Origin: Apricaphanius iberus
Taxonomy: Eukaryota; Chordata; Actinopteri; Cyprinodontiformes; Aphaniidae
DNA: 64,000 nt
Assembly: GCA_028564705.1 (NCBI GenBank)
Contig: JAPXFQ010002662.1
Span: 1,178,001 to 1,242,000, forward strand
Direction of reading: 5' to 3'
A program made the translations under genes and the position numbers. The notes under the pieces are model-generated. The model searched no databases and was not told where the DNA came from. It was given only the letters and a program-made list of their open reading frames with translations. Positions 15,760 to 50,388 of this stretch are shown in pieces. Positions within the stretch are counted from its first letter, which is position 1. Every line of letters starts with the position of its first letter.

Positions 15760-16493
15760 GGCAAGGCAAGGACATTTTATTTGTATAGCACACTTTCAAC
15801 ACAAGGCAATTCAAGGTGCTTTACATGATTAAAATTGGAACACAGCATAAATCAATTTGATGATCAAAATGCAAGAAAGCAATTACAATAAGACAATAGT
15901 CAAGACAATACAACAATGTAAGGACAAGCGGGTAAAAACATAGTTTGTATTCACTAACTGATCTCACTGAAAAGCTCCAAGTTCTTCCTTCCACTAACTG
16001 ATCGTGCTGCAAAAGCTCACAGTTTTAATTCACTAACTGATCTTGCTTCAAAGCTCACAGTTATTCGTTCCACTAACTTATCTTGCTGAAAAAGCTCACA
16101 GTTATTTATTCACTAACTGATCGCGCTGAAACGCTCACAGTTTTTATTCCATAACTAATTTCGCTGAAAAGCTCACAGATCTTCCTTCCACTAACTGATC
16201 TTGCTGAAAAAGATCTCAGCTTTTATTCCATAACTGATCTTCCTGAAAAAGCTCAGTTTTTATTTACTAACTGATCTCGCTGGAAAGCTCACAGTTTTTA
16301 TTCCATAACTGATCTCGCTGAAAAGCTCACAATTCTTCCTTCCACTAACTGATCTTACTGAAAAAGCTCAATGTTCTTAATTATAAAAAAGAAAGAAAGC
16401 ATTTACAGTAATCAATTGTGTGAAAATTAAAAAGAAGCAAGTAAAAACAGTTACTCATAGGCGAGTCTAAATAGGTAAGTTTTAATTTTAGAC
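15760..16493 (+). repeat. Dispersed fish repeat, 5' half, interrupted at a TTAA-type site
   Basis: Begins GGCAAGGCAAGGACATTTTA and continues GTATAGCACACTTTCAACAC and GGCAATTCAAGGTGCTTTAC. It contains the expanded minisatellite, then GAGTCTAAATAGGTAAGTTT. From memory of this family, the next consensus part (TTAAAGGAG ... GGTAGTTTGTTCC) is found 12.6 kb away at 29114, so this is half of one repeat. Confidence 0.75.
15951..16378 (+). repeat. Minisatellite, about 39-bp unit, 11 copies
   Basis: Units follow CACTAACTGATCTTGCTGAA, then AAGCTCACAGTTTTTATTC with 37-41 bp spacing; about 11 imperfect copies. The array sits inside the dispersed fish repeat. Confidence 0.9.
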
Positions 16494-16497
16494 CTAA

Positions 16498-16516
16498 AGG
16501 AGCAGGGGGCCGGATT
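16498..16516 (+). repeat. Left terminal inverted repeat of the TTAA-type element
   Basis: AGGAGCAGGGGGCCGGATT, matched in inverted orientation at 29095-29113 allowing two single-base indels. The preceding CTAA corresponds to TTAA at the right end. Confidence 0.65.
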
Positions 16517-16648
16517 GAAGAATTAAACTCGCAACTGCTGCGCCCGGCGCTGCGAGTAACTACAGCCAACGCGGGAGCGCGTGCAAAAAGTAAATCAGCG
16601 ACGTAACGTAATTTCAGGCCGCCGCACATCACCAGCTGTACAAGCAAC

Positions 16649-18236
16649 ATGTCTAGCGATGAAGTAAGCAATAGTGTGTTCTTTGTTGTAACATTAGTAA
16701 ATATATTTGACAACATTAGCATATTCATTCATACATACCTACCAGTAGTGATGTAAAGCATCTATACCTTCCTCAGACCATTTCAAGTTGTTTTATTACT
16801 GGCAAGAAGCCAACAGCGTAATGCTACTTTACCACGACAGGTTTTAGCTGCGTCTGATTTTTGACTTCCTTAGGCAAATTGTATCTAGCCTATTATCTTG
16901 CAGGAATGTTGCTGGCAAGCTAATGTAAATATGGCCATCATCACATAAAAAGATAATCTTTCAAGCCTTTGAACATTCATGAAAAAGTTTGCATTACTGA
17001 CAATGCACAATAACAATGTAAATTAGAACAGAAATGTCAGTGTATCAATAATAATGCGTCAAAAAATATATCCTATTGAGGGTAATAATTTGGCTTTGTG
17101 TCTGAATATGATTTCTGACAGTTGTAGTGAAATTATGGGTATTATTTTGGATCAGGCTTCCAAGATAATGCAAGTGTGTAATCATGTAAAAGCATTTCAT
17201 GTTTCAAGGCACTGACAATTTATGAAACTTTTGTCATTACAGACAATGCACCATAACTACGTAAATAAGAAAATAACTTTCAGTGTTGGTTCAGAGATAA
17301 TAGAATCAAATATATCCCCTTGTATATCTCATTGTTTTAGGAAATAACTCTGGAAAGTGTGATGGTGGACTCTTCAGAGGAGTACAAATCTCAGCCTGCC
17401 ACAGACTCCAATGAGTCATGGAAAAATTTTAGAATAGGGGGTAAAGGAAAGGGTGAGAGGAAAGGGTCGGGGTAGGGCACGTTCAAGGGGTGAGGGCAGC
17501 AAGTCGAGGTCCAGAGCTGCTTCAATATGAACAGGGCGCCGGGGCGGGCAGCGAACAGCAGCTCACCGGGAACGGCTTGCATTGCTGAGAGCTGCGAGTG
17601 TAGCGGACATGCAGGTTGGTTATCACTTCTATGGTCAAAGAATTATGTGAACATGTAAAATGGCTAAAATTTGAATAATGGATGTAGTACAAACATTTGC
17701 CTCTGATTATTTTCTAGATGGCTTTACAACAACTGAGCCAAGAGGACAGAGATCACATTCTACAGCAGGTGGTGGCCCGTCTACCAGGTGTGATGCTGGA
17801 CATCTTGGAGTTCTGTCAACAGACACCAGCTCCCCACTTTCCTGATCAAGGGCAGCCGACATGGTGCACTTGCCTGAACTGCAGACGTATGCCTACATAG
17901 ATGGAAAACCTGTGCTGTTGGCAGACTTCTGAATTCTGTCTAAGCAGAAGTGCTTACCTGGAGCTATACTGCATGGATGAAGGCATACTATGCCTGGTGA
18001 GGATGACCTGGAATTATATATTTGTCTTACAGGACAATCAGAATGTGGGTACCGACAACAGGGAGTTTTGGTTCGCTTCCTACCACCAATTCACTATATG
18101 GCAACATGGGCATCTGGGAAGAGGCAGTCGGAGGCCAATTCCAAGTTGCTGTGTCCTCTGCATACGTGCAAAATTCCCTGACCCATTTGGCAGTTATGTT
18201 GTCTACAAAGAAGCTCCATTCAGAGGGGAAGACTGA
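16649..18236 (+). pseudogene. P2RX7_C-domain protein gene (P2X7 receptor cytoplasmic 'ballast'-type domain), three exons, disrupted
   Basis: Exons: 16649-16663 (MSSDE, donor gtaagc), 17341-17614, 17718-18236. Exon 2 opens EITLESVMVDSSEEYKSQ (acidic), becomes Arg/Gly-rich (GRGRARSRG) and ends HRERLALLRAASVADMQ. Exon 3 reads LSQEDRDHILQQVVARLPG, WCTCLNCRRMPT, ENLCCW, DNREFWFASYHQFTIWQHG and IPSCCVLCIRAKFPDPFGSY. The Cys pattern (CxCxxC, CC, SCC), WQHG and the FPDPFG.Y end match the zinc-binding C-terminal domain of P2X7 receptors; there is no receptor channel part. Breaks: a 1-base insertion in exon 2 (274 bp where phases need 273), TGA at 17528-17530 (CGA to TGA type) and an in-frame TAG at 17898-17900. 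Cytosolic function is unknown. Confidence 0.8.
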
Positions 18237-18397
18237 AATTTACAGCTGATCTAGGACCACAACGACTCAAAATAGCAACCACACATAAAAAATATTGTTT
18301 GTGCAATATATTTATTTTTATTGTTCAAAGTTTACAGTGTTTTTAAAATTTGTATTTGTACATAGTTTGCTTTTCTAAACTTTTCATAAAAAAAAAA

Positions 18398-18403
18398 AAT
18401 AAA
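18398..18403 (+). terminator. Poly(A) signal for the P2RX7_C gene
   Basis: AATAAA about 160 bp after the stop, within an A-rich stretch. The signal is plausible but A-richness weakens it. Confidence 0.4.
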
Positions 18404-19052
18404 TAAAAAGAATACGTTGGTTGTCTCTTCTTCTCATGTGTCATGTAGCCGGTACCTTTATGGAGAGGAGAAACAGTAGTATTAGAACATATAGCAAGGC
18501 GCTAGCAAATATCGCAATTGTCATTTTCAACTTGCCATTGGCTAAATGTGTACCAATGGCTTGATGCTGGTAGTGTGCTCATTTCAAATAGTTCCAGACT
18601 TTCACAAGAATAACTAGCGGATTACCATAAATGATTCAGCACAAAGGTTGTCAGATTTTCTGCTCACTTGTACAGCAGGTGGATTAGAAGACTTTTTATT
18701 TCACCAGCATAGCAATTGAAAGTACCGGTAAGCTGAAATAATATGTGGGATGCAGGTCAATGTAGGTAGCGGAGCAGGGCACACTTAGGCCGCCATGATT
18801 GGTTCTCGTTCCAAAGAAGGATAGTGTATGGAAGTAAAAAAACAGCTTTCACAAGATCAATCTTGCTTCGTTTTTATTGCATTATACATGCACACAGCCA
18901 TACACAAACGCATTTCGTCCAGAGCAGCTTTTGACTAAAATACATATGTGTATTGCTGTGTGTGCGTCTAATGCATTAAAAAGGCAAAAAGACTGATCTT
19001 GTCAATAAGGTAGATTCATCATGGATTCAAGTGAATGACATACCTCTCCTCT
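18404..19052. other. Interval between two convergent 3' ends
   Basis: Lies between the stop of the P2RX7_C gene (18236) and the stop of the transposase-like gene (19053). It holds AATAAA on the minus strand at 18878-18873, a reasonable poly(A) signal for the latter. No coding content seen. Confidence 0.45.
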
Positions 19053-19929
19053 TCAAATGTGTGTCTGGACGAGTTCTGCTGTAGGAGGTGGCACAATTTG
19101 AGCAAGATTTCCAAGATACCTTGGATCTCCCGGCCAAACTTCCGCCGTTCTTGGGAGCCCCCCTCTGTCCATACACTTTCTCGGGATCTGACGCTGCAGT
19201 TTGGGGATATAGCTGCAGTCCATCTTAACCTTACCACTTGAACACGGTAATTGCGGGACTTCTTGTTGTATAGTTGCTTGTATCTAAAAGACAAACGTAC
19301 AATATTCACTGCAGTTCCCCCTCTTTCTCCTGTCTTTTCTGTCCATCAACTTTATAATACTGTACTAGCACATTTGCAAATTTTTTTGAAGTACTTATAA
19401 TTCTCCCTTCTACTGAAAGTAAAAAAAAAAAGTTATACTTACGACTTCTCATTATTCCTGTGTATGTAATCGGGTCAGTGGTTGTGTTGGTTGTAGTGGT
19501 TGTAGTCCAACGCAGCAAAAAGGCACCTTGCTTCGTAGACCGGAGGAGAGACCGCAAACCTGTGTTTATGCATGGAGGCCGAGGGACAGGTTTAGAAAAG
19601 CTGAACCCTATAATTATCCCTAGAATAAATTTTTCTTGGGCAGAATATTTGCTCAATACTTCTATTCTTTGTTTAGAACCAGGAAAATACAACAATGGCA
19701 ATACTTTCAATAAGCTTTTATCAAACATGGAATAATCGTATCAAGATCCAATTACCTTTTTCCAGCATACATGAGTATGCAGTTCTGGAAGCTCTCAAGT
19801 TCTTCCGTCGACCTGGCAGAAAAAACCAAGCTGAAACTTAACAAACATTTGTCTTTCTAAGTCCCTCTTTCCCCTTGTTAGTACTATATTCAATTTATCA
19901 GCTTTTATAATGACACTGTAGCTTTTCAG

Positions 19930-22900
19930 CTTATTAAAACAATGTTATTAATGTACCGAAAGGTAAGATACACTGACACTGAGATACATCTTATAGTTAT
20001 CAGTGATCACGCTCCTGTTTCTTTAAATTTAGCAAGTAGAATAGCAACCCTTCAATATAAAAATTGGAGATTTAATACATCATTACTTAAGGATAGAGAA
20101 TTTATTAAATATATTGAAAAAGAATGGGCTTCATACATGGAATTTAATTATCTCCCTGGTATGTCGCCATCCACTCTCTGGCAGGCAGGGAAAGCTGTGA
20201 TTAGAGGTAAAATAATTTCATTCTCATCAAATAAAAAGAGAACAGAAAATAAACATGTTCAAGACATAGAAGAAACTATCAAATCATTAAAAGCTTCCCT
20301 TGATAAAGAGAGCTTAAGCAAAATACGGAAAGCAAAATTAGAATTGAAATTATTAATAAACGGACGCAGTTCTTAATCCAAAGACTTCGAATAGAAAACT
20401 TGAACATAGTAATAACTCAGGTAGCGTCTTAGCTAATCAGTTAAAAGTAAATAAAGAAAAAAACAACTATATCTGCAATCAAAGACAAAATTGGGAATAT
20501 AATATATGATCCTGAAAGAATAAACAACACATTCAAAGAATTTTATGCCCTGGATTCATCGCTAACAGTGTCTGAACTCCAGGAGGCCCTCCAATCCATG
20601 CCTAATAATAAAGCTCCAGGCCCAGATGGATTTCCAGTAGAGTTCTATAAAGAATTCTGGAATATTCTGGCACCAACATTGTACAAAATGTTACAGGAAA
20701 CAAAGGAAAATGGTCGTTTACCACCAAACATGAACTCTGCCTACATCAATCTTCTATTAAAACCAGGAAAAGACCCTATGTCTCCTACCAGTTATCGTCC
20801 CATTTCTCTTATTAATGTTGATTTTAAAATAATTTGCAAAGCTCTTGCAAGATGGATTTAGAAAATAACACCTCTAATAATTCATCCTGATTGAAACAGG
20901 TTTTATAAAAGGTAGGCTCTGTTCCACAAATTCACGTAGATTAATAGATTTAATAGATTATTCCTACTGTAAAAACGTCCAAACGAATATATTATCTTTA
21001 GATGCAGAAAAAGCATTTAATAGAGTTATTTGCAACCTTACATACATTTGGGTTCAGTAATTCTTTTGTAAACTGGTTAAAAATATTATACAGCTCACCA
21101 ACAGCATGTATTAGGACTAATAATCAAACATCATCAAGGTTTTTCCTTCAGAGAGGTACCAGGCAGGGATGTCCACTTTCTTCCTCCCTCTTTGCTATTT
21201 TTATTGAACCCTTAGCAGCAGCAATCGGGCAAAAATAATAATGTTAAAGGTATACAATGCAACAAAATAGAACATAAAATTAGTCTGTATGCAGATGATG
21301 TACTACTCTTTCTACAGCATTCACAAACTTCTTTCTCTCAGGTAATTGAGTTGATAAAATCTTATTGAAGAGTTTCAGACTATTCCATAAATTGGTTAAA
21401 ATCTACAGTCCTTCCAATCAACTGTTCTTTCCAGGGTCCAGTTGCTGTGCAACTCTGGTTGGGAAATATTACATATCTAGGTATCCATATCTCACCAAGA
21501 CTGGCAGACTTATCAAAGCTAAACTACGTCCCACTTTAAAAAAAAGTGGAAGATGATCTGGCAAGGTGGAAATCCCTTCCAATATCACTTATTGGAAGCG
21601 TAGCTACAATAAAAATGATGGTTTTGCCTAGAATCAATTATTTATTCTCAATGATCCCAAGCAAACCATCACCTGATTGGTTTAGAACTCTGGACTCTTC
21701 TGTTTCTAATTTTTTTTTAGACAGATAAACCCCCACGTATCAGCTTAAAAACACTACAGAAGTCCAAAGATATCGAGGTCTAGACCTACCAAACTTTTGT
21801 CATTATTTCTTAGCTAACAGGCTCCAATACACATCAAGATGGGTAAAACACAGTTATATCGATGAGTGCTGGGTAGATGTTGAACAGACACTATGCAATA
21901 AGATAAGACTTTCAGATCTACCTTTTGTTAGCTCAAATATAAAACAAAATGAATGTTTTAAAAGTATTAATATCAGCTCCTCTCTGACAGCTTGGTGGGA
22001 ATTTCTTAAAATGACAAAGACCTCACTAGTCCAATGCAGGCGTACACCCATCTGGAATAACCCGGATATCTTACAAAAAAAATGCATGATCAACTTTCCA
22101 AGCTGGAGTTGTAAAGGAATTGAATACCTGGAGCATATATTTGATGGAACATACTTTATCCAATTTAATAGATTGGTTACACAATTCGGAATTAACAAGA
22201 ATAAATTCTTAGAATACCAACAAATTAAATCAATTATAAAAAATAAATTTAGGCTCAATACAGTTGATTTACAAATTCCAGGAAAAGTTTTAGACTTCCT
22301 TAATCTTAACCCTCCCAAACTGCTATCTAAAATATACAAAACATTAAATAGAATAGATGAATCAATAGCCCTTCCTATTTCAAAATGGGAGATGGACTTG
22401 TCCATCTCAATTGACCAAAACCTCTGGTCTCAAATTTCATTAAGAACCTTTAAATTTCTTAAAAATCCTAATCTACGATTAATACAATATAAAATCCTTC
22501 ATAGAGTGCATTATACAGGGCAACGGATGTTCAAGATGGGTTATACGCCGTCTGATACCTGTTTACAATGTACAAGCAATCTACCAGACAATTATATTCA
22601 TGCTCTTTGGTTCTGCCCACCTGTTAAGAAATATTGGTACCAGATATGTGAAGACCTATCAAAGTGTCTGAAATGTAATATCACACCTGCTCCCACAGTT
22701 TGCTTGCTGGGAAATTTAGATGAAGTTACCATGGATACAAAGTCTATGCAATTAGTTCACATCGCCTTATGCATCGCTAAGAAAAATATTCTCTTGAACT
22801 GGAAAAATAAAAATACTCTGAATATTAATCAATTTAGAGATCTCCTTCTGGGATGAATTTAGGTCTGCCCCTGGGATGGGGGCGGGCGGATGGCCTGGGC

Positions 22901-25205
22901 CCCCATGGGGCTCGGAGGTGCCGCTGTCGTGGGACTTAACGTGCTGGGGCCTCCCACCCCTGGTGGATCGGGCCGAACGGGGTTGCCTATTGGAGTCAGC
23001 AGGGGAGCTGGCTCCCTGGGGTTGGCAATGGTCACCCCAGTTATTTTCTCCCCATCCCCATTGCCTCTGTCCACCTGCTCCTTCATTCTACCATTCACAA
23101 GGCCTTGGGACGTGGGCACGTCACTGGGGTGCGGGATGGAGCTTCCGTCTTTGCTACCCGGTGTCGGCCTGTGTCCCGATTTTATATAGCAAATTAGACA
23201 CTTACCTTGCAACATTTACATGGAACGCACATGTAGGGACCTGGCGGTGGGGCGCATTGGCGCTGGGGGCGGGACCCCTTATGGGGGGCCCCTTAAATGC
23301 AACTAGACACTGAGGGCCCGGGGGGGGGAGATGGGGGTACCCGGCAGTATTCCCATGTCCCACCCCTCTGTTTTAAGTGCACATTAGAACAACACGCAAC
23401 CACACCACATTGAGCGGGGGGAGAGAGGCTGGGGGGCATTTCCACACCCCTGTTCGTTGGACCATCAGGGGTCGGAGCCCGGGTAGAACATCAGGCCTGG
23501 TCGGGGTCCTGGGCTGGTGGGCTGCTCTTGCCGGTGTGGGGGCCTTGGCGGTCTGCTTGTCCCCATCCTGTTGGGCAAAGGGGTCTGTCTCCCGGGTGTA
23601 GGGGCAGGGTGCTCTATTGGGGCGTCTGTCCCTGGGAGTATGGAGTATAGTGTATGTATGGGGGGTATGAATGAGTGTATAGCGTCCTTTTTTCGTATGT
23701 CCTGTATTTGTAAGAATGTGTACGCATGAGAGGGAGGGTACGAATGACTGTCTCTGTCTGTCTATGTCTACCTGTCAGGTTGGGTGTTTGGCTTCCCTCT
23801 GGCCTGATTCGTCTTCTTCCCCTCAGTTACTTCCCGTCGGTGATGGATTCTCCTGCCCGCTGGTTGATGATGGCTCTCGATGCCTGGAGCCGGGGGTCCC
23901 GGTTGCGGCCCGGCTCGGTCCTGGTGCATGTCTGGCGGGTCCTGGGTGGTCCGGTGTGTCGGGCGGCCGCTGTTTCGGGCCGACGTCCTCCTTGGATTGA
24001 CTGGGGCACCTCTTATGGGAGTGCCGGGGTTGTAGAGTAGGTTGGTGCCGTCCGGTGGATCGGTGGGGACCGTGCCTGGCGCCCAGTCCTCCTGCCGGTT
24101 CCAGGACTTCTGCTGGCTGGTCGGTTCATCTGGGGGGGCTGTCCGGCATTGGCTGGGCCCCTGATCTTGGCGCCCTGCGTGGGGAGGGATCTGGACCCAG
24201 GAGCTGGAAGATCTGGATGTCCAGGTGCTGGCTGGGCGCGGCCTGGGGAGGGCGTACATCCGCTGTGGCTCTTGCTGTGGCTCCCTGGCGTGTGGGTGTG
24301 TGGGGGCGGGCCGGGTTGTTGGCGGTGGGTATTGGTCCGGGGTGGCGGCGGCGTGTGTTGTCCGTCGGTTGGCTGCGGCTCACCCTTGCCTGCGGCGGCG
24401 GCGGGGGGCCCTTGTCGGCCGGTCCCTGGTTGGGGCCCCGCTGGGGGGCTGGGTGCCCCTGGTCCCCGTGGCCTCCGGGTCCTGATCCGGGCCCGCCCTG
24501 GCGTAGCCGGTTTGTGGCGGAGCCCGTGGTTATCGTCACTGCAATCTCTCGGGCCCCAGCATTGCGGCTGGTGGGTGTTCCCCTGGGGCTTCCATCTGTT
24601 CCTCTCTTGGTGGGTGATCGACCCTGCGCTGATCCGCCTGTGGCCTCTGTACTCTGTGGGACCCTGGATGCATACATCTCTTGCCTCCTCCATGTCTGTG
24701 TCGATTCCTGTAGGACGGATTGACGGTTCCTTACACCAGCTATCAATCACTTGCATGGGGAAACCTTATTCAGACCTGCATGCTCGCACACACATAGGTG
24801 TGGGGACATTGGTGTGGACGGACATATCTTAAGCTGAGGTTATCATCATTAGTTAGTTGTTCACAGGAGCTTACCAGAAACATTTGAATTATGTTCATTA
24901 ATCCATGCTTGTGTGTAGTGAGTGTGTAATTCTTAGTTTATTCTACTAGATCCGAACTATTGGTTTGGTTCTGTACAGTTTGTTGTTTTTGTTTGTATTA
25001 CTGTTTCTCTGCCGTCCGGCAGAGGTGGAGGACTGGGATGTTTTCTTGTGTTCTTGTTTGCCTCCCTGTCTTGTGTCGTCGGTTCGCGCCTCTGCTGGTC
25101 CGGTTTCTTTTCTTCAGAGAAAGAGAAAGAAAAAAAAGAAGGAAAAAAGAAGAAGAAAAAAAAAGCTAAGAAAAAAAAGAGAGAAGAAAAAAAATAAAAA
25201 ATAAA
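19930..25205 (+). mobile_element. 5'-truncated L1-type LINE with a long GC-rich 3' part
   Basis: Begins inside the endonuclease domain (VISDHAPVSLNL, about 19975). RT follows in broken frames: MPNNKAPGPDGFPVEFYKEF and SYRPISLIN (20568-20861), RQGCPLSSSLFAIF (about 21160-21215), SLYADDVLLFL (about 21280-21315), then an open C-terminal frame 22011-22856 with C..C..(H)..C (CLQCTSN..IHALWFC). Multiple stops and frameshifts make it inactive. From 22857 the base composition turns strongly GC-rich to about 24800, then returns to mixed sequence and ends in an A-rich tail at 25117-25205. The GC-rich block sits where a 3' UTR should be. No target duplication was resolved. Confidence 0.75.
22857..24830 (+). 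other. GC-rich 3' untranslated block of the L1 copy
   Basis: Follows the ORF2 stop directly. It contains many G runs (GGGGGGGG near 23320) and open frames on both strands that are a by-product of low A/T content. The segment from 24535 is repeated at 25906 in a second L1 fragment, showing it belongs to the element. Confidence 0.65.
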
Positions 25206-25210
25206 AAAAA
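25117..25210 (+). repeat. A-rich tail
   Basis: (GA)-(A)n tract of 90 bp ending at GCCATGAATG; taken as the degenerate poly(A) tail of the L1 copy. Confidence 0.7.
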
Positions 25211-25905
25211 GCCATGAATGTAATAGGGCATCAACACAAAATAGATTTTACAATCTATGTTGAGAGAAGGGAACAACACATGAAATTGCAACTGGACATC
25301 CAAGACCTTTTAAACAAAATTTCTAGTCTTGAAAAAAAATGCTGATATATTTTAAGAAAAAAAAAATAGTAATAATATGTATTTTGTTTGTTCTTCGGTA
25401 TGTAGTAGAAAATACATTGAAAATATTTAGTATGCACCAAACGTTGCTTATCAATAATCATTAAACAGAAATGTATGGCTTATTATTCTCATTGTTTTTG
25501 TTAGACATTTTAAAAGTCCTAACGTTATTGAACTCAGCATATATTTCGGACTTCATTGAAAGCGCCACAGGTGTGCAGCGGATGCTGCTGGATGTTTATG
25601 TGTAGCTTATAAAGAAAGATCGCTCGTATATACTTGCAGATTTATAAAGAAAAAAAAACTTTAGCCAAGGGCGTCATTAGCATGGAGAAGACCTTTTAGA
25701 CGGCCCAAACATTTACCTTCAGCAAAGATGGGGCGGGCTGGATTTCTCTTTCGTCTTTCATGCTGAAGCTTTAGCCTAGCGGGCTACAGCTAGCTAGCTA
25801 GCTAATGGCGCATCTGACCTGTCAATGCGATGGTGGCCGTTGCATGACAAACACTACGCGAAGCGAAAATGTAAAGATGTTCAGAAAACATATTAAAAGT
25901 GGGCT

Positions 25906-26508
25906 CGTCCCTGCGATCTCTCAGGCCCCAGCATTGCTGCTGGTGGGTGTTCCCATGGGGCTTGTATCTGTTCCTCTCTTGGTGGTTGATCGGCCCTGCG
26001 CTGGTCCGCCTGTGGCTCCTGCGCTCTGTGGGACTCTGGACCCATGCGTCTCCTGCATCCTTCATGTCTGTGTCGATTCCTGTAGGACGGATTGACGGTT
26101 CCTTACACCATCTATCAATCAGTTGCATGGAGAAACCTTATTCAGACCTGCATGCTCGCGCACACACACATAGGTGTGGGGACATTGGTGTGGACGGACA
26201 TATCTTGAGCTGCAGTTATCGTCATTAGTTAGTTGTTACCAGGAGTTTACCAGAAACATTAGTATTGTGTTCATTAATCCATGCTTGTGTGTAGTGAATG
26301 TGTAATTCTTAGTTTATATTACTGGATCGGAACGATTGGTGTGGTTCTGTTCAGTTTGTTGTTTTTGTTTGTTTGTTTGTTTGTTTTTTTACCGCTTCTC
26401 TGCCATCTGGCAGAGGCGGAGGACTGGGATGTTTTCTTGTGTTCTTTGTTTGCCTCCCTGTCTTGTGTCGTCGGTTCGCGCCTCTGCTGGTCCTGTTTCT
26501 TTTCTTCA
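25906..26508 (+). mobile_element. Second L1 fragment, 3' end only
   Basis: Collinear with 24534-25116 with scattered substitutions: GGTGGGTGTTCCC, GATTGACGGTTCCTTACACC, GTGGGGACATTGGTGTGGAC and TTGCCTCCCTGTCTTGTG occur in both. It is a 5'-truncated copy of the same L1 family inserted in the same intron of the transposase-like gene. Confidence 0.85.
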
Positions 26509-27382
26509 CCTTCTTCCTTTCTTCCTTCTTGTCTCGGTTTCGTGTCCATGACTTCAGGAAATTGAACCCACAGTAGCGAAGCTGTAACACTCTGCTTGGG
26601 AAAGTAAATCTCTTTGGCTTGTAGTTGGTACTTAGACACCAATTCTGAGTAGCAAACTGCTAGACAGGGCAGGTAAAAAAAAAAAGAAAGAATGGTAAGA
26701 TACTTGGCAACATCTTTCAACCAGCGTCTGTTGAACATCACTCGAAGAGCCTCGTGAGGTGGAGAGCCTGGCATCATGAGCTCTTTATCAAGGGCGACCT
26801 CATCAAGTGGTCCATGGTCACATTTGCCTCGGGTCCATTCATGTTTCCCTGTGAAATGATTAAGCACGCCCACCCACATATCCTACAAAGAAATACAAGT
26901 TTTAGGAGAAGAATAATTGACATGTAAAACAGTTAGTCCTCAATCACCCAAAGCAAGTGGGATAGCATTCATTAAAATGTAATGGTAATCATTTTGACTT
27001 ATATATTTGTTTTGATGTCCAAAATATGACAGATTACTTATATTGAACATGTCGCATGTTCAGCTTTCTTGCAAATGTACCAAAACTGATTGATAATGTC
27101 CTTCAGCCACACAAGTAAGATGGAATTGCCTTTTAGAGTCCCAGCCTGTGAACAGAAAAAAGATAAATAAATGTTGTTATTACCAGTAGGTCTATTCACA
27201 ATTTGGTTTGTATTTTGTCCACAGTGACAACACTGATTATGTCCTTTGACACATTTTCCATTGCGGTATAAGTGCAGTACAGGGCTGTATTGCCTGTAGA
27301 GTTAGTACAATATGAAAAAAAAACATTAGCATGCTGAACAGGTGTCAATACAGCAACAAAATTTGATCATTAGAATATTTAC

Positions 27383-27406
27383 CTGGAGAGTCCATCCTTC
27401 CATCAG
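27383..27406 (-). pseudogene. 24-bp microexon encoding the DGRMDSP motif
   Basis: Flanked on the minus strand by a pyrimidine-rich ..TGTTCCAG acceptor and a GTAAAT donor. It joins in phase to the exon ending GCACTAG (27559) and to the one starting at 27293, giving ADGRMDSPGN, the expected first catalytic Asp motif. Confidence 0.65.
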
Positions 27407-28820
27407 CTGGAACAGATAAAGGCAAGTATAAGAAATGTGTAATTGAAACAAGGGCTACTACATAGCATGGCAAACAGTTTTTCATCTGTGTAAAAACAAT
27501 TTGTGCAAATGTAAAGTGTTCTCTGGTGCTGGTTTGTACAATGCATTCCCACACGTACCTAGTGCAACAACACTTTCCTTTGGATGCAAGCGGTCAATGA
27601 TTGCAGCTCTCTTCTCTCAAAACTCTTTTATAGATTCAATGAAATAATGGCTCTGCATGAGTCTGAATGTTTTCCGAGATAAAAAGCCTATATTCATGTA
27701 TCTAAAGAAGAGGGCAATCTTCGAGAATTTATTGCCAGAGAGGAGTATGTTTGTGGCGAGCATGAAGACCCTCCTTGCATGGAGTACTTCAAGATGGGCT
27801 GGCTATTCCACTTCCATAGCTTATGACCATGACTGCAAAACTAAAATGGACATGTTATGGATAAGTTAACATTAGGCCTAATAGACAGTAACAATAAAAA
27901 TTTCAAAACAAATATCTCAGTCAATAACGCTGTGTACAACTTGCATGACCATATTTTATTCTACCCTAGATACACAGTGCAGATTTTGGCCAATGAACAC
28001 TAATGTATATGACAAACCAGCGTTTACTTTGTGTAAAGTTTGCCTAGTTGTGGCAACTGATTCAGTTCCCTTCAGATAAGAATTTCCGTGTTCCTTTTCT
28101 GGCTGAATTATTCTTATTTGCTTGTTTGGCCAAATTCAGTAGATCCACGAGATTTGCAACATGAAAAATAATTCTGCCGATATCCAGGTGGGTCAAAAGG
28201 CCACTACTGATTGTGTGGGCAAACATAGATTTCGTGGCGGTAACACAGACATTACAATCAGGGAACCGAATCAGATGTAGCATAGCAACTGTTGGACTAG
28301 AGCTAACAATGCGCTGCTGTAGAAGACAATGACTCCGGTAATCGGTCTACAATCAATTTCCATCACGTTTTACACAACATTGTTAAACGAGCAGTAAAAC
28401 TATGGCATGTTAGGGGTCTAAGTTATCAGTAAGCTGATATCATTTCAATATCAAGCTGTAAACATTACCTATATTGTTTCTTAGCATGTGCTAGCATTGA
28501 TAACTGTAGTAGACAACAATGACTCCGGTAGTCGGTCTAAAAAAAATTCCTTCACATTTTAGACAGCATTGTTAAACAAGCTGTAATGTTTCTTACCTGT
28601 TCAATAGGAAAATAGCCATATCTGCATCTGTTTTCAGTCCAAGTTTGAGCTGTAGCAGCCACCAATCATCGAAGGCGTAACCAATATTTATATGGGGCCG
28701 ACTTCGATCATATCTTGCTTTATCAAGAGATGCAGCCGATGAAGCCGTTTTCTTTTTTGTGCCACTTTTTAGTGGGCTTTGTGTGGTGCTTGTTCGTTTG
28801 CCTGATGCTGAAGAATCCAT

Positions 28821-29094
28821 ACCCACAGTTGAATCAAACACGTATGAAGTCCGGGTTCTTTCTCTTCCTTCTTCCTGTTAAATTGAGAACACACAAAAAG
28901 TTGTAGATTGACGTCACATCTGTGCGTAAGCGGCTAAGTGCGGGAAATTCAGCCCCGAATCGCAAACTATTTTGCAGCACACAGGCTCTTTAAGATAATG
29001 GAATTACACATGAGTGGGCTCATATTACTTAGTTTAAAATGCTTCATTACCAAACACAGTTACAAATCTGAACATGAATATAATTTATTTCACA
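28821..29094. promoter_or_regulatory. Right subterminal region and probable 5' flank of the transposase-like gene
   Basis: Lies between the first ATG (28820) and the right terminus (29095). It includes TGACGTCA at about 28910-28917, a CRE-type palindrome. Otherwise no motif recognised; promoter function is inferred from position. Confidence 0.35.
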
Positions 29095-29113
29095 AATCCA
29101 GGCCCCTGCTCCT
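29095..29113 (-). repeat. Right terminal inverted repeat of the TTAA-type element
   Basis: Read inward on the minus strand as AGGAGCAGGGGCCTGGATT; counterpart of 16498-16516. Followed outside by TTAA. Confidence 0.65.
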
Positions 29114-29117
29114 TTAA

Positions 29118-29392
29118 AGGAGTTCATTGTCTCTGCAGTTTTGCATTCTTCCGGTAGTTTGTTCCAAATATGAGGAGCAAAGAAGTGAAAGCTGCTTCTC
29201 CTTGCTTGGTTCTGGTGATGATCAGTAAACTAGAGCTGGAGGACCTGAGTGATCTGGATGGTTTGTACCATGATAGCAGATCTCTAATGTAATCTGGTGC
29301 TAACCCATTTAATGATTTATAAACCAATAAAAGCACTTTGTAGTCTATTCTGGAGGGAGCCAGTGTAAGGACTTTAGAACTGGGGTGATGTG
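29118..29392 (+). repeat. Dispersed fish repeat, 3' part (LINE-derived), first block
   Basis: Continues the repeat that starts at 15760: AGGAGTTCATTGTCTCTGC, CCGGTAGTTTGTTCC, GAGTGATCTGGATGG, CCAGTGTAAGGACTTTAGAAC. On the minus strand it reads like a LINE tail (KVLLLVYKSLNGLAPDYIRD). It resumes at 30103 after the hAT MITE. Confidence 0.7.
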
Positions 29393-30102
29393 CAGTGTGG
29401 GGAGTAATGCATTAAAAAAGTAATATGTTACAGGAATAGATTACTTTTTTCAGTAACTGAGTAATGCAATGAATTACTTACAAAATATACAGCAATATAT
29501 TATTAGTTACAATTTCAGTAACTCAAGTTACAAAAGTATTTTAAATTGTTTTTCTGGCCAACTAATGCAACAGACCAAATATAGCTGGATGCGGTAGAAC
29601 AAGATCCACCATCCACTTCCTGTTGCTTAAAACGAAAACATCAGAGAATCAGGACGACTGAGGAAAAGATTGACTGTATATTTAAACAGCGGCATCATTC
29701 ACACTGTTTTCTAACCATCTGTTGTAAGACTTCAGACATCAGAGTCTCATCTTTGTCAACCATCTTTGTGATGAGCACTTTCAGCACATTCTTTCGATTA
29801 GATTCAACAAACATTACCATGAAATAGAAGGCATGCAAAAGAACTTGAGACTTAATTTTAATAAAATAGTGTTAAAACTACAGTATTAGTGGTGTGACAC
29901 TTGTGTAAAATTTAAATTCATAAGTTACGGTGGTAAGAAGTGGTGGTAAATATTTAAGATATTTTACCAGAAGTAACTTAAAGTAGTGTAACTCAGTTAC
30001 ATTTTTAAAACAGTAATATGTAATGCAAACATATTATATTTTTGACATTGTAACTAGTAATGTGAAATATATTACAGTTTCTTTGTAACTTTCCCAACAT
30101 TG
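29393..30102. mobile_element. hAT-type MITE with 8-bp target duplication
   Basis: Termini CAGTGTGGGGAGTAATGC (left) and, inverted, CAATGTTGGGAAAGTTAC (right). Flanked by GTGATGTG at 29385-29392 and 30103-30110. It splits the fish repeat. An 8-bp duplication and CAGTGTTGGG-type ends fit hAT. Confidence 0.85.
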
Positions 30103-32199: not shown

Positions 32200-32960
32200 G
32201 ATGTGAAACAGTTAACAAGGAATCCCACGAAGAGGGAAGAGGTGTTGACGAGGCCAGCGACGAGGAAACAGGTGTCGAAGAGATCAGCAACGAGGAAACA
32301 GGTGTCGAGGAAGTTGGAGACTTGGAAAGTGATGACGAGGTAGCTGGAATCTGAGGAACTGGTCACATGGTGGCCGATGTTTGAGGAACTGGTAATGTGG
32401 TTGCTGAAATCTGGGGAACTGGTGACATGGTGGCTGGCGTCTGAGGAACTGCTGACGTAGTGGCCAGCGGCAGAGCAGAGCCTTGTGGCGTGGAAGGTGG
32501 CGAAACAGCAGAGCCTGGTTGTGTGGAGGCTGGTGGCGGAGCAGAGTCTGTGGCGTAGAAGCCAGTGGTGGAGCAGAACCTTGTGCCTGGGTGGCCGGCA
32601 CCGATGAACCTTGTGCCTTCGAGGCTGCCTTGTGTCTTGGAGGTCGGACTGAAGCTTGTGGTAAGGCTGGCTAGACTGAAGCTGGTGCTAAGGCTGGCTG
32701 GACCAAAGTTTGAGCTGACTTGAAAGTCAGCAAATGTGAACCTTGTAATGAGGCAACAGCCGTCAGAGCTGAACCTTGTGGTGAAGCGATGGCTGGCAGA
32801 ACTGAAACTTTTAGTGAAGTGATAGCCGACAGGGATGAACTTCTTATTGAAGTGTTTGCCAGCAATGATGAACCTTGTAACTGGGTGGCGAGCAAAAATG
32901 TACCTTGTGCCTTTGAGGCTATCTAAGCAGAAACTTGTGCCTTTGAGGTTGCCTATGTAG
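32200..32960. repeat. 30/33-bp coding-like minisatellite, left block
   Basis: Units such as GAGGAACTGGTGACATGGTG plus GCTGGCGTCT (30 bp) grade into GAACCTTGTGGTGAAGCGAT plus GGCTGGCAGAACT (33 bp). About 24 units. Because the unit length is a multiple of three, long frames stay open on both strands, with a repeating 10-11-residue pattern. No real gene is claimed. Confidence 0.8.
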
Positions 32961-32964
32961 CAGG

Positions 32965-35165
32965 GAGGAGGGCCGCGACCAGCCCGGCCGTGACTAGCCA
33001 GGCCTAGGACAGAGCCAGAGCGAGCCCCTGGATCCGAGAACCGCACGCAGAAGACTGCGACGAAAGCGGGGGAAATGAGGAGGACTCTGGGTCAGACTGA
33101 GGGCACTCCCGCTAAAACCACCGATTACCAGTAGCTGGCCAACGTGAGATCGCTGGAAAATACGATGGATGAGCTGTGAGCCAGGATCAAATCTCACAGG
33201 AAGACCAGAACGTGCTCCAGCTTTATTATCGTTGAGACTTGGTTAACAAAGAACATCCCGGACCCAGCTATGAGTCTGGAGTGCTACTCTTTGTTCCAAG
33301 CAGACAGAACCGCGGACTCTGGTAAGCGAGGAGGGGGAGGTGTTTGTGTTTACATCAACAATGCATGGTGTAGAGATGCCCAGATGGTGCAGAGACACTG
33401 TTCACTGGACCTGGAGTTTTTACTGCTAAAATGTCGCCCTTTTTATCTACCGAGAGAGTTCACAGCGGTGTTTCTGGAGGCTGTTTATATACACCCGCAA
33501 GCGAACCAAGAACTCCATGACGTCATCAGCGAGCTGGAGATGGCCCAACCAGACGCACTGCAAATTTAGGCAGGTGACTTTAACCAGTGTAAACTTTGAA
33601 GTGATCTGCCTAAATATTATCAGCATGTGGACATTCCTACATGGGGGAAAAACACCTTAGATCACGTTCATAGTAACATCATAGTTGCTCTGAGAGCGGC
33701 AACACGCCCCCCCTTCAGGCAGTCTGATCACAAAATGGTGTTCCTGTACCCCGCCTACAAACAGAGTGTCAAACAAACAGATCCACTCATACAACAGGTC
33801 AACACAGCATCCCTGGTCTGTTACTCAGAGCATCCTGCCTGAATGACTACAGACCAGTAGCCTGAAGTGCTTTGAGAGAGTGGTACTTTCCCACATTCAG
33901 AGCAGCATACTAGACACTATAGACCCTCTGCAGTTCGCCTACAGGTGGAAACAGGTCCACCTCAAACGCCATCGCTGCTGCCCCACACGTCTCCCTCACC
34001 CACCTGGAGATTAAAGATTCCTTAGTCAGAATCCTCTTCATCGATTACAGCTCCTCCTTCAACATGGTGGTCCCCCACAAACTCACAGTACTTGGACTCC
34101 CCCCTTCCCTCTGTGACTGGGTCCTGGACTTCCTGACCTGCAGGCCACAGTCTGTCAGGATCGGGAACAGAACCTCAGCCAGCATCACCATGTACACCGG
34201 TACCCCACAGGGGTGTGTGCTCAGCCCCATCCTCTACACCCTTTTCACCCACGACTGCGTCGCCTCCCACCCAGACAACATCGTCCTGAAGTTTGCCGAC
34301 GACACCCCGGTGATAGGATGCATCAAAGAAGGGGACGAGACGTCCTACAAGAAGGAGGTGGACAGTCAGGTGACACGGTTCGTGGACAACAACCTCACCC
34401 TCAATGCAGACAAGACCAAGGAGATGATAGTGAACATGAGGAGGAAGTGGAGGAGACCTCATCAAGCACTGTTCATCCGAGCCCAAGAGGTGAAGAGGGT
34501 GAGCAGCTTTAAGTACCTGGGGGGCCACATAGGCGACGACCTCACCTGAATAACCAACAGGAGGTGAAGAAGGCTCACCAGCGGCTATTCTACTGAGGAG
34601 GCTAAGGAAATTTGGTGTGCCACCCAAGATCCTCAGCAACTTCTACTGCAGCATCATTGAGTCCATTTTGACCAACTGTATCACCATGTGGTACGGCAGC
34701 TTAACCATGAAAGACCACAAGCACCTGCAGAGAGTCAAAACTATATAAGATCACCAGAACACCACAACCCTCTAGCAGTGCATCTACAAGAAGAAAGTGA
34801 GGAAGAGAGCTGCTTTCATCATCAAGGACCCCACACACCCCCAGCACGATCTGTTCACACTTCTGCCCTCAGGACAGAGGTACGGGAGTGTGAAGAGCAG
34901 ACCTAACTAACTTAAATCATCTTTCTTCCCCCCAGCCATCAGACTGTTGAATAGCTAGAATTGCTAGTATATTCTTATCTGATTTTATTTATCTAATTTT
35001 ATTTTATTTGTCTGTTTTTTTTTATTATTGTGATTTGCACATTTGTTTCCGATTTGCACATTTATTTCTTGATAATTATGGCATCTTGGTGGGGGGTTCC
35101 GGGACAAAGTAAGAATTTCAGTGTACACAGTACAATTGACAATAAATACTTTGAATTTGAAATTG
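32965..35165 (+). mobile_element. CR1/Rex1-like LINE, internally deleted
   Basis: Endonuclease part 33230-33840: ETWLTKNIPD, CYSLFQADRTADSGKRGGG, then AGDFNQC and a DHKM motif (QSDHKMV). RT part 33845-34550: LNDYRPVA-type sequence with a stop, [65 protein letters not shown]. The region linking endonuclease and RT is missing at about 33840. The 3' end is CAATTGACAATAAATAC followed by TTTGAA-type repeats, typical of this group. Several stops make it dead. It interrupts the minisatellite. Confidence 0.75.
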
Positions 35166-36090
35166 AATTTATGCAGAACCTTGCGTCTTGGTGATGCAGA
35201 ACATTGTGTCTTGGAATCCGACGATAAAGAACCTTGTATCTTGGAGGCAAAAGTAGGTGGAGCGGAACATGTGGATGCTAGTTGAGACTATTTTGATTAA
35301 ATGGATGGTTATTATGGTGAAGCCGGCTGCAAAGCAGGATCTTGGCCGGCGACAATGAACTTTAATTCTAGGAGACCGACAGAGTTGAACCTTGAGAATT
35401 GGACGCCAGCAGCTGTGAACCTTGAGATTTGGAGGCCGACGGCTTTGAACTTTGAAACTTGGAGGCTGGCAGCGGTGAATCTTGAGACATGGAGGCTTTG
35501 TACATTATACTTTATCTTGGGATTGTGTTGTGGTTGAGAAGTGTATGGTAGTTGGTATAACAGAACCTTGTTTATTGAAGACTGGCAGCGATGAACCTTT
35601 TGTTTAGGTGTGAGGCGGCAGCGGTGAACCTTGTGGCTTGGGAGGCGACTGGGATGAGGCTTACGCTGAGGCGAGGACCGGCAGAGTTGAACTTTGTGGT
35701 GGCCAGGAGGCTGGCTGGACTATAGCTTGTGATAAGGCTGGCTGGACCAAGGCTTGTGCTGACTTGAAAGTCGGCAGAGGTGAACCTTTTAGTGGGGCAA
35801 CAGCCGGGGAGATTAACCTTGTAGTGAAGTGATGGCTGGCAGAACTGAACCTTGTAGTGAGGCGATGGTAAACAGGGTTGAACTTTGTAGTGAAGTGATA
35901 GCTGGCTGAGCTGAACCTTGTAGAAAAGCGCAGGCCAGTAGGCCTGAATCTCGTGGCTTGGAAATCGGCGGGCGAGCATCTTGTTGCTTGGGGCCAGCAG
36001 GCCTGAGTCTTATGCTTTGAAGACCAACAACAAAACTGGGACCCACGACGAGACTTAGATAACCCTCAGAGGTGCGTAGACTGCTCTTAT
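35166..36090. repeat. 30/33-bp coding-like minisatellite, right block
   Basis: Continues the left block after the LINE: GAACCTTGAGATTTGGAGGC plus CGACGGCTTT, then 33-bp units such as GAACCTTGTAGTGAGGCGAT. Same unit, same orientation, so one array was split. Confidence 0.8.
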
Positions 36091-45675: not shown

Positions 45676-45972
45676 TTTCAGTATTTTATCCGAGAAGATT
45701 TCACTATGTTATATGAGAGGGTTTCACTGTGTTATATGAGAAGAGTTCACTATGTTATAGGAGAGGGTTTCACTATATTATATGAGAGGGTTTCACTATG
45801 TTACATGAGAGGGTTTCACTGTTATATGAGAGGATTTCACTATGTTATATGAGAGGGTTTCACTATATTATATGAGAAGATTTCAGTATGTTATATGAGA
45901 GGGTTTCACTATACTATATGAGAAGATTTCACTATGTTATATGAGAGGGTTTCACTATGTTATATGAGAGGA
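45676..45972. repeat. 23-bp minisatellite, about 13 copies
   Basis: Unit TTATATGAGAGGGTTTCACT plus ATG, with AAGA for GAGGG variants. It directly abuts the truncated pol frame of the BEL/Pao element. Confidence 0.9.
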
Positions 45973-47955
45973 TATTTCAGTTTTAGTTTCTCTTTGAAGG
46001 ATGTGACAACATGTATGAGTCTAGCTAAAACTCTGCACAATCTGGTCCAGTCAGAGAATCTCTGAAACCGTTCAGAACCTAGCTGTAGTTCTAAAGCTGC
46101 AGTTTTCAACACTTTGATCTCTAGACGTAGCTCTTTGTCCATCTCAGGTTCGACGAGCGTGAAAGTGGCAGTGTTTGGTCTCACATGTGAGTCAGAGTGT
46201 AGAAAGGATGGACCTGAAAACCAGGTACTCTTCTGCAGGTCAGTTGCTGGAATATATCTGGTAGCCTGGTCAGCTGGATTTAGCTCAGTTGGTACGTAAT
46301 GCCACTGGCTAGGGTGGGTAGATGTTCGAATGCGTGTAACCCTGTTGGCAACATACATGTAGAATCTTTTGGAACTGTTGTGTATGTAGCCTAACACAAT
46401 TCTGCTGTCTGTGTAGAATGTCACACAGTCTACTTTGATGTCTAGCTCGTCTCTAATTAGCTCAAACATTTCCACTGCAAGTACAGCAGCGCAGAGTTCC
46501 AGGCGCGGTACCGTGTGTGCAGGACGGGGTGCTAGCTTGGACTTCCCCATTACAAACCCAATGTGGCTTGCTCCATCATTATCAATCGTACGCAGATAAG
46601 CTACTGCCCCAATAGCTAGAGTGGAGGCATCGGAAAATATGCACAGTTCTTTCAATTTCATTGCACCTAACCCATCTGGACTGTAGCACCTAGGTATTTG
46701 GAGGTGTTCAAGGGCTTGCAAAGAGTCTTTTCCAGGAGATCCAGATTTCATGTTTTTCAGGGGGCAGTGGTGTGTCCCAATCTCCTCCACCAGATGATAG
46801 CTCTCTGAGTAATGCTTTTCCTTGTATTGTTATGGGAACTACAAAACCGAGGGGGTCGTACAGGCTGTTGACCATTGATAATACTCCTCTGCGTGTAAAT
46901 GGCTTGATCTCACCAGATACCTTGTAGGTGAAACTGTCTGATTCCAGATTCCAACAGAGTCCTAAACTTCTTTGAACCGGAAGGGGGTCCACTCCTAGGT
47001 TTAAATCTTTTAAATCTTTTGCCCGATCCTCAGGAGGGAATGCTTCCATAACTTGGCTACAGTTTGATGCCACTTTATGAAGGCGTAGATTAGACTCTGC
47101 TAACATGTTCTGTGTTCTCACAAGCAAGTCCACTGCTTCTTCTGGTGTAGCAACTGACATGAGCCCGTCGTCGACATAAAACTGACGCTCAACAAACTCT
47201 CTAGCCTTAGATCCATGTTCTGTTTCTCCCTGCTGTGCCGCCCGTCTCATGCAATAAATGGCAACAGCGGGTGAAGGGCTGTTTCCGAACACATGCACCT
47301 TCATTCTAAACTCCCTTACGTTTTTTGTGATATCGTTATCCTCATACCACAAATAACGCAGAAAATCTCTATGTTGTTCCTGTATAACAAAACAGTAGAA
47401 CATTTGTTGCACGTCCGCTGTCAGCGCTATGGGCTCTTTGCGAAAGCGCAGCAGCACTCCTAACAGGGAGTTGTTTAGATCCGGACCGCTGAGAAGAACT
47501 TGATTTAAAGAAGTTCCATCACATTCCGCGCTAGAATCAAAAACAACGCGTATTTGTTCTGGCTTCTGCGGGTGATATACACCGAACGTAGGCAGATACC
47601 AATGTTCTTTATTTTTTGGTAAGGGAGGAGCGGAGTCCGCCTGATCGTTATCCAACATTTTTTGCACGAATTGATATAATGATTTTTCATCTCAGTTTTC
47701 TTCTCTAACATCTTCCGGAGAGAACAGAGGCGCTTTAAAGCGTGCTCTCTGTTGTCTGGGAGCCTCCTTCTCGGAGAGCGAAAAGGTAAAGGTGCTACCC
47801 AGCTGTTCTCATCGTTTTGATGAACCTCATTGTCCATGATTGTCAGGAATGTTTTATCATCGATGGACATGGCCTGTTTGTCATCACGCTCAGATCTAAC
47901 AAACACAGTGTCCCAAACTGTTTGTGACTCTGTTAGTGTTTCTGTTGCTCTCATA
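45960..47955 (-). pseudogene. BEL/Pao reverse transcriptase and RNase H region
   Basis: Three overlapping frames (47954-47505, 47667-46708, 46790-45960) cover one protein, implying at least two frameshifts. RT motifs: VFDSSAECDGTSLNQVLLSG, ALTADVQQMFYCFVI, FGNSPSPAVAIYCMRRA and FYVDDGLMSV (catalytic YVDD, about 47170). RNase H-like part: LCIFSDASTLAIGAVAYLRT, AAVLAVEMFELI, FYTDSRIVLGYI. It ends in KEKLKLKYPL directly at the minisatellite; the zinc finger/integrase core is absent. Confidence 0.8.
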
Positions 47956-49335
47956 GTCCTCCTTAACGTGAATTATGCTTGGACAAGGCTCAAAATAAGA
48001 CGTTCGGCCGTTCTCTAATGTATGTGTTTTGTAAACGTTCACATCTGCCTGACTGTGCACTTTTCCTAAACACACCTCGCCCACAATAACCCAACCTAAG
48101 TCTAGCCTTTGAGCATAAGGTGAATTATTTGGCCCATTAATTTGCTCACGTACCTTATGAACCCTGAGTATGTCCCTGCCGAGGAGTAAGAGAATGGGGG
48201 CGTGGTGGTCAATAGGTGGGATTTTGTCTACAACGGGAAGAAGATGTGGGTGATGCTGTGCGATCTCCGGAGAAGGTATTTCACTTCTGTCATCTGGAAC
48301 AGAGTCACATTCTATTAAAGGGGGAAGCTTGATCTCAACTTTTCCGTCCATGGATTCAAGGAAGAAGTTTTCTGCTCTCCTACCTGAGGTCAGTGCTTTA
48401 CCGGAGCAAATCTTGAGAGTATATGGAGTGGACTTAGCTTTGACTTTGAAAAGGCTAAAAAACTCAGACTTAGCCAATGACCTATTGGACTGCTCATCTA
48501 TTACAGCATACATTTTTCTGGCTTTCTCTTTGTGGCCTGCAGGATATACTTTGACCAAGCTGATCTTAGAACATGAACGAGAGCTGTCGTTTGGACCACA
48601 TACCTCCGTGCACTTTGACACAACTGGAGGAGAGCTCTCAGTTTGCTCCTCGTTGTTGATGTTTTCCAGCGGAGTGCTCCTTGAGGCAGGATCAGGGCCA
48701 GGATGCATCGCTGCTAAATGTTTAGGGCTGTCGCACTCCATACACTTAACTGCTGTTGAACAATCTTTTGCAATATGTCTAACAGATCCACAGCATCTAT
48801 AGCAGATGTGGTGCTCTTTCAAATAGGCCTGTCTTTCTTCAATAGGCTTACCTCTGAAAAGCTTACATTTCTTCAATGGGTGTGGTTTTTTGTGGATCGG
48901 GCACTGGCGATCTGGTTCTTCCATTTTCTCTGGACTGCGATTGTAATGATTCGGCTCAGCTGTAATGTCGGTTTTGTGTGCTGCCACTGTAGGTTTGCGA
49001 TTGTGAGGTCTTGGTTTTTCTATGTGAGAAAGAAGATGGCAGCTAGAATTAGACATAACAAAGCTTGGGTCGTTCTTCATTTTCGCTTGCTGCTGGACAA
49101 ACTGGGTGAGAACTGAAAAAGGAGGAAAAGACACATTATGAATCTCTTTATACTGCGTTCCCACACTCATCCATCTTTCCTGCAGGTTAAAAGGGAGTTT
49201 CTCAACTATTTGTCTGACTCCCCTAGCAGTGTCTAAGCATGCGAGTCCCGGGAGAGCACCATCTTGTTTTGCACATTGGAGTTCCATTAAGATGTCGCTA
49301 AACTCTTGTAACTTGACATTTTCTTTATTTGTCAT
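47896..49335 (-). pseudogene. BEL/Pao zinc-knuckle and protease region
   Basis: Contains HHICYRCCGSVRHIAKDC and KCMECDSPKHLAAMH (zinc knuckles, residues about 175-215) and then YAVIDEQSNRSLAKSEFF, the DUF1758-type aspartic protease with DEQS in place of the usual D.GS/D.QS active site, and LLLGRDILRVHKVREQ. The frame is lost at about 47900, where the coding sequence moves to another frame (ATETLTESQTVWDTVFVR). Confidence 0.75.
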
Positions 49336-50388
49336 TTTGGGAAAATCTTCAACCTTTTTTAGGAGCGCATCCTCAATGGCTTCAGATGCGCCGTAGCACT
49401 CTTAGAGGCGCTGCCTGACCATCTTGGCACCTGCTTCAGGATTTAGGGTGTGAACAGCACGAATGTGTTTGGCTTGTTCTGACGATTTCGGGCCTAACCA
49501 CCTGGTTAGCAAGTCTAATTCTTCTCTGGGAGACAAGCTTAGATCGTTGGTTGCACTAATAAATGAGGTTTTCCATGCCCAATAGTTCTCCGGTTTGTCA
49601 TCAAATTGCAAAAGTCCTGAGCTCACTAGTTCTTTTCTAATGAGGTATTTTGCAATATCTGGTGTGAGATTTGGCTCGGTTTTGTGATTGTAAAAATTAC
49701 CATTTGGACGTGCAGGGTTGAACTGACTTGTGTTGGTTATGCATGTGTATCCCGTTTGCTCCTTTGTAACTTCTCTTTTTACTGGAAGTAGTTTTGCTTG
49801 AGAGTTGGTTGTGAGGAGATTAATTATTTGACCACTGTCTTGTATGTTTACATAATTTTCCTTTTCCTCAAGAGGCTGCGCTGCATTGGACTGACTGTCT
49901 GACAAGAGAAACTCACATTGTTGTTCGACATATTCACTCGTACGCTGCAATGCGTTAATAGATTGCGGTTCCACGCAAGGTTCTCTGCAGGACTCCCCGC
50001 TCTGACACTCTACTTCTTCATATGCAGAGGCCTCAGCTTCAGCTGCAGCTATTTCTTTTTGGCACTTTAGGACATGTAGATTAGCATCCAGTTCAGCTTT
50101 CTGTTTAATCATGTGTGCCTCCTTTTCAGCAAAGACCAGTTGAGCCTGTGCTGCTTTTGCTTCAGCATATGCTCTAGCTGCTGCAGAACTGGTAGATGAA
50201 GAGGATGTACGCTGAGAAGGCTTTGTCGAAGCTCTGGATATCTGGGACCTGTTGTAGAATGTCTGCGACTGTTGCTGCATTTCAGCTTGTTCAGTGATGA
50301 CCTCCTGTTGTTGGTCGACACTGGTTGCTTCAGCTGGATGCTGTTCAGCATAGTCTTTCAGATAATTTTTTCCTGAGCGCAGACTCAT
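49336..50388 (-). pseudogene. BEL/Pao gag-like region
   Basis: Starts MSLRSGKNYLKDYAEQHP. An Ala/Glu/Lys-rich coiled-coil-like stretch covers residues 65-125 (AEKEAHMIKQKAELDANLH). The C-terminal part (PENYWAWKTSFI, LSPREELDLLTRWLGP, GAKMVRQRL) is the typical DUF1759-like gag domain of Pao/BEL elements. A TAA at 49402-49404 interrupts it inside the expected RL.ECYG motif; the same frame continues ECYGASEAIEDALLKK into the next part. Confidence 0.75.

Follow-up and report, generated by a model that had tools for sequence, protein, structure and literature searches.

The 64,000-nucleotide stretch of Apricaphanius iberus DNA analysed here (the window) holds a segment of 12,616 bp, 16498-29113, that is bounded by inverted termini and inserted at a TTAA site within the coding end of a long interspersed nuclear element (LINE). 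A single pair of termini encloses two convergent genes, one for a KolX protein that resembles the C-terminal domain of the P2X7 receptor and one for a transposase. The boundaries of the segment and the flanks on either side of it are as follows.

16451-16493, minus strand: final codons of the LINE into which the segment inserted (SKIKTYLFRLAYE-stop), directly beyond the insertion point
16494-16497: left copy of the target site, CTAA, one change from TTAA
16498-16516, plus strand: left terminal inverted repeat, AGGAGCAGGGGGCCGGATT, starting with AG (5'-RR)
29095-29113, minus strand: right terminal inverted repeat, AGGAGCAGGGGCCTGGATT
29114-29117: right copy of the target site, TTAA, flank sequence
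29114-29411, minus strand: upstream part of the C-terminal coding region of the interrupted LINE, read in two frames

The strongest evidence that the segment is a single mobile unit is the empty site. On the minus strand, the right flank ends in ...KLPEECKTAETMNSFK and, with TTAA counted once, the left flank goes on as SKIKTYLFRLAYE-stop, such that the C-terminal frame of the LINE is whole again once the flanks are rejoined over one TTAA. Joins offset by 1 or 2 bases leave the halves in different frames (one frame being printed per shifted join). When the joined reading, the right-flank portion of which itself merges two frames, was used as a query, 84 relatives were returned; 72 of the 84 best alignments cover at least 5 residues on either side of the join, and none of these 72 has a gap there, the remaining 12 stopping short of it. 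Because the frame is restored and the relatives run ungapped through the join, the segment is an insertion at TTAA in the C-terminal coding end of the LINE. The two halves of one repeat that the initial annotation placed outside the segment can thus be described more sharply, as halves of this coding end that are in frame over one TTAA. The interrupted LINE may be L2-like. A tandem array with a unit of ~38 bp (~11 copies, 15942-16370) lies near the left end of the transposon, past the stop codon of the LINE.

The termini at 16498 and 29113, with TTAA on the right flank and CTAA on the left, are present as initially annotated; over 19 nt they differ by 2 mismatches, and they follow the pattern AG...CT, or 5'-RR ... 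YY-3', that characterises Kolobok transposons. The 4-bp duplication is specific for TTAA, a property shared by Kolobok and piggyBac, with one base differing on the left and a single insertion seen. In a repeat search the termini were the second inverted pair listed for the region, with arms of 33 nt (16495-16527 and 29084-29116) that are 82% complementary. Every other match to the 19-nt termini in the window, with up to 5 mismatches allowed, had exactly 5. At up to 2 mismatches, the left terminus has 1 minus-strand match in the window, against 0 in 200 simulated first-order Markov sequences of equal length; alone, this control is modest, since the termini had been chosen after the fact. Among viral contigs, the terminus pattern occurred in 1 stretch (L001).

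The exon borders of both genes were placed by eye and with tblastn. The KolX gene, on the plus strand, starts 151 bp inside the left end, at 16649, and stops at 18236; its predicted exons have GT/AG borders.

16649-16663, plus strand: KolX exon 1 (MSSDE), followed by a GT donor, called by eye
17341-17614, plus strand: KolX exon 2, Arg/Gly-rich, with a frameshift and an in-frame stop; residues 5-26 and 42-106 of relative P0001 match in different frames
17718-18236, plus strand: KolX exon 3, the P2RX7_C or ballast domain, with seven aligned Cys and one in-frame TAG at 17898

Exon 3 matches the Pfam family P2RX7_C and solved P2X7 structures, and the seven zinc-site cysteines are found in the window copy by alignment (WCTCLNC, LCC, FC and SCC); the gene thus combines similarity to the P2X7 ballast with the seven Cys. 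The earlier proposal that the cytoplasmic domain of P2X7 has a mobile, stand-alone relative is borne out. The cysteine pattern is also that of the zinc-coordinating residues of the P2X7 C-terminal ballast and Nanor-like proteins (PMC7016195). The two KolX pieces of the window that were scanned with Pfam show no P2X channel family, and P2RX7_C is the sole Pfam family in relatives P0001, P0004, P0005 and P0010. The KolX alignment included all 11 of the 11 relatives, several truncated at one end. Of the five rat guanosine diphosphate (GDP) contacts in PMC7016195, the profile of the relatives retains R546 and R578 alone; position 547 is aromatic, 574 is Val and 583 is Asp. In the window copy, Trp occupies position 546. 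The Arg/Gly-rich exon 2 also occurs in P0001, from Nothobranchius furzeri.

The transposase gene lies on the minus strand; it starts 293 bp inside the right end, at 28820, and the last exon with a match runs to ~19041. The two convergent genes therefore begin close to the ~150 and ~290 bp from the ends that were first reported, with 3' ends at 18236 and ~19041.

28596-28820, minus strand: transposase exon 1, start Met at 28820, matching residues 4-45 of P0016, followed by a GT donor
27557-27840, minus strand: transposase exon HKLWKWNSQP...NILLSGN..., matching residues 48-143 of P0012, with a frame change near 27766 and a stop
27381-27407, minus strand: transposase exon ADGRMDSPG, region of the first catalytic Asp, equivalent to Asp337 of P0016
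27205-27303, minus strand: transposase match after DGRMDSPG, TALYCTYTAMEN...VDK, by match to relatives
27056-27145, minus strand: transposase exon AGTLKGNSILLVWLKDIINQFW..., the preceding part (TDAH, DxxH) being unmatched
26685-26882, minus strand: transposase exon with an H-H-C-H zinc finger, HFTGKHEWTRGKCDH, by match and alignment of relatives
19755-19814, minus strand: transposase exon with the third catalytic residue (ELESFQN), by match and alignment of relatives
19442-19561, minus strand: C-terminal transposase exon PPVYEARCLFAALDYNH, containing a stop
19041-19283, minus strand: last transposase exon or exons, in two frames

This gene is a member of a transposase family found mainly in fish, the features of which are D, D, E, DxxH and a zinc finger. 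In an alignment of 12 relatives chosen from 53, D337 and D404 are invariant and E549 is found in at least 90% of the 12; the D429..H432 pair of the C/DxxH motif, which lies between the second D and the E, and the finger residues H487, H492, C499 and H501 are invariant in 12/12. The window copy has the exons for the first Asp and the Glu, and keeps the finger. The part with the second Asp and DxxH (TDAH) has no match in the element by tblastn with the 53 relatives, 40 of these queries having TDAH. Three high-scoring segment pairs (P0015, P0023 and P0031) cross the place and none shows TDAH; two pass through introns and stops with 27-28% identity, and that of P0023 (E 0.91) lies elsewhere. Residues 1-47 of P0012 and 46-240 of P0016 are likewise unmatched. 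Against Pfam, six short pieces of the window transposase yielded nothing of use, and the transposase profile gave weak matches only against PDB sequences, all to unrelated enzymes (best E 0.45).

Both genes are broken, KolX by the frameshift and stops, the transposase by stops, frame changes and the part for which no match was found. The copy looks dead, judging from the damage to KolX and the unmatched second-Asp/DxxH part of the transposase. Much of the DNA between 19.85 and 26.7 kb is other repeat sequence, including pieces of LINE reverse transcriptase.

19882-22856, plus strand: open reading frame (ORF) pieces of a LINE reverse transcriptase, with RVT_1 and zf-RVT matches that are both below cut-off; not the transposon's own genes

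These pieces, which sit in the transposase intron flanked by the zinc-finger and Glu exons, are 25% identical (E 7e-21) to the LINE reverse transcriptase at 58.0-59.8 kb (RVT_1 E 4e-28), and may be L1/Tx1-like. Within the same large intron there is a direct repeat pair of ~600 bp (24533-25116 and 25905-26508; 88% identical, ~1.37 kb apart), with an A-rich tail at 25116-25211 after the first copy.

The published description of Kolobok (Kojima & Bao 2022, PMC9587614) gives as hallmarks TTAA duplications, 5'-RR termini and C/DxxH and, for nearly all lineages, a zinc finger located between C/DxxH and E, the finger having a conserved Cys at its third position. According to the same paper, the Kol0 lineage encodes a transposase together with KolX, a protein resembling P2X7 residues 476-595, its seven Cys included, which correspond to the P2X7 ballast domain; the P2X7 tail was proposed to derive from a fusion with KolX, and Nanor is likely another domesticated KolX. 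The 12.6-kb segment is best read as a decayed DNA transposon that entered an older LINE at TTAA; it very likely belongs to the Kol0 lineage of Kolobok, has broken transposase and KolX genes, and likely arrived by cut-and-paste through an intact DDE transposase (probability roughly 0.92). Since the Kolobok features that could be examined are present, some of them only in relatives of the broken window copy, this is an independent sighting of a known kind of transposon. The initial annotation was right that the unit moved as one TTAA-inserted DNA transposon with both genes, given the single pair of termini and the restored LINE frame. It mentioned that Kolobok and piggyBac use TTAA and assigned the element to neither; the features fit Kolobok. 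Thus, what it observed holds and its interpretation stands in part, the exception being novelty: the element was called undescribed, and the pairing of Kolobok transposase with KolX, including the conclusion on the origin of P2X7, is that of Kol0 in PMC9587614.

The resemblance to Kol0 (Kolobok-1_XT type) extends to a DDE transposase with KolX, the TTAA target and the 5'-RR termini, whereas the window element is one decayed copy with the second-Asp/DxxH part undetected and LINE sequence in an intron. Its convergent gene order is observed directly, the order not being stated in the excerpts of PMC9587614. The Xenopus Kolobok elements (XKol, T2-MITE; PMC6004289) share TTAA and, in several subfamilies, AGGA-type termini, and their full-length elements of 6.8-13.9 kb are comparable in size; KolX and P2X7, in contrast, each have 0 occurrences in the main text of that paper.

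Several points weigh against this assignment. The left target copy reads CTAA instead of TTAA, and the evidence covers one insertion and one genomic copy. Membership of Kol0, which we regard as very likely, is argued from published features, not from a transposase tree or a Repbase reference. The AlphaFold model of KolX relative P0001 (11 rows) is poor, with a predicted local distance difference test (pLDDT) score of 40.6, and so the predicted ballast fold has its support in sequence. The whole-transposase model is middling (mean pLDDT 61.3, predicted template-modelling score 0.55), and Foldseek found no PDB match at E<=0.001, the best being Hermes at 2.4e-3. The Pfam family 'Mutator-like transposase' is barely reached by P0019 (26.6 bits; cut-off 26.5), with P0012, P0014 and P0016 below it and no match for P0013 and P0015.

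Three other explanations were considered and rejected. That a piggyBac-superfamily transposon acquired a ballast-domain gene is suggested by the shared TTAA target and by the few piggyBac families that carry a KolX-like protein, but in the account of PMC9587614 most of these lack the seven Cys, all of which the window KolX retains, and it is the 5'-RR start, here AG, that tells Kolobok from piggyBac. The transposase features are also of Kolobok type, the relatives having DxxH and the zinc finger, and the piggyBac Pfam family has 0 matches in six transposase relatives (E<=0.1) and in six short window pieces (E<=10); a piggyBac origin is therefore highly improbable. Retention by the host of a domesticated gene pair is equally hard to credit: domestication is known elsewhere for Kolobok transposases and for KolX, as Nanor and P2X7 (PMC9587614 and PMC6004289), yet stops and frame changes interrupt both window genes, and a catalytic part is missing.

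The repeat density of the window, the LINE sequence between parts of the transposase gene, and the fact that both genes are seen together in this one copy only could suggest that KolX and transposase came from different insertions or host genes and are neighbours by chance. Against this, a single pair of termini encloses both, excising everything between them restores the LINE frame, and the pairing is the Kol0 content described in PMC9587614. Furthermore, both genes have relatives in Nothobranchius furzeri, Neogobius melanostomus and the genus Epinephelus, a co-occurrence at the level of taxa only. A chance association is consequently very unlikely, if slightly less so than the other two.

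Elsewhere in the window, a minus-strand LINE at 57616-62220 has long ORFs with endonuclease (PF03372) and reverse transcriptase (PF00078) domains and a possible ORF1 at 61255-62220. A BEL/Pao-type retroelement, also on the minus strand (45960-50436), has a Peptidase_A17 match, with RVT_1 below cut-off, and a 23-bp tandem array at 45676-45971. On the plus strand, a reverse-transcriptase ORF at 33923-34549 (RVT_1, E 4.5e-16) is flanked on either side by several tandem arrays with units of 27-66 bp (32228-35923), in long open frames. The sole host-like piece among five scanned is that of a DEP-domain gene at 629-970 on the minus strand (PF00610, E 3.5e-17).

If the Kol0 transposon behaved as its family would predict, the transposase would bind the AGGAGCAGGG ends, its D-D-E residues would cut, and the element would join TTAA with a 4-bp duplication. 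KolX may be an accessory nucleic-acid-binding protein that aids transposition, a reading prompted by the Arg/Gly-rich N-terminus that precedes the two-zinc Cys module. After insertion the copy likely decayed, losing the second-Asp/DxxH part and ending up with LINE sequence in an intron, and at present it could be moved at most by the transposase of another copy. A tentative and rather doubtful extension is that KolX is the transposon's own nucleic-acid-binding subunit, with fish relatives near enough to the P2X7 tail to ask whether the ballast is a repurposed transposition factor in which the zinc module was kept and the full GDP site gained later.

The find is an ordinary one, the link between the transposon and the P2X7 tail having been published in 2022 by Kojima and Bao. 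It lends independent support to the published idea of a P2X7 ballast domain carried by Kolobok transposons, to which the window element adds a clean demonstration of the empty site and a copy that is broken yet readable, and the fish relatives are good material for testing the role of KolX in transposition.
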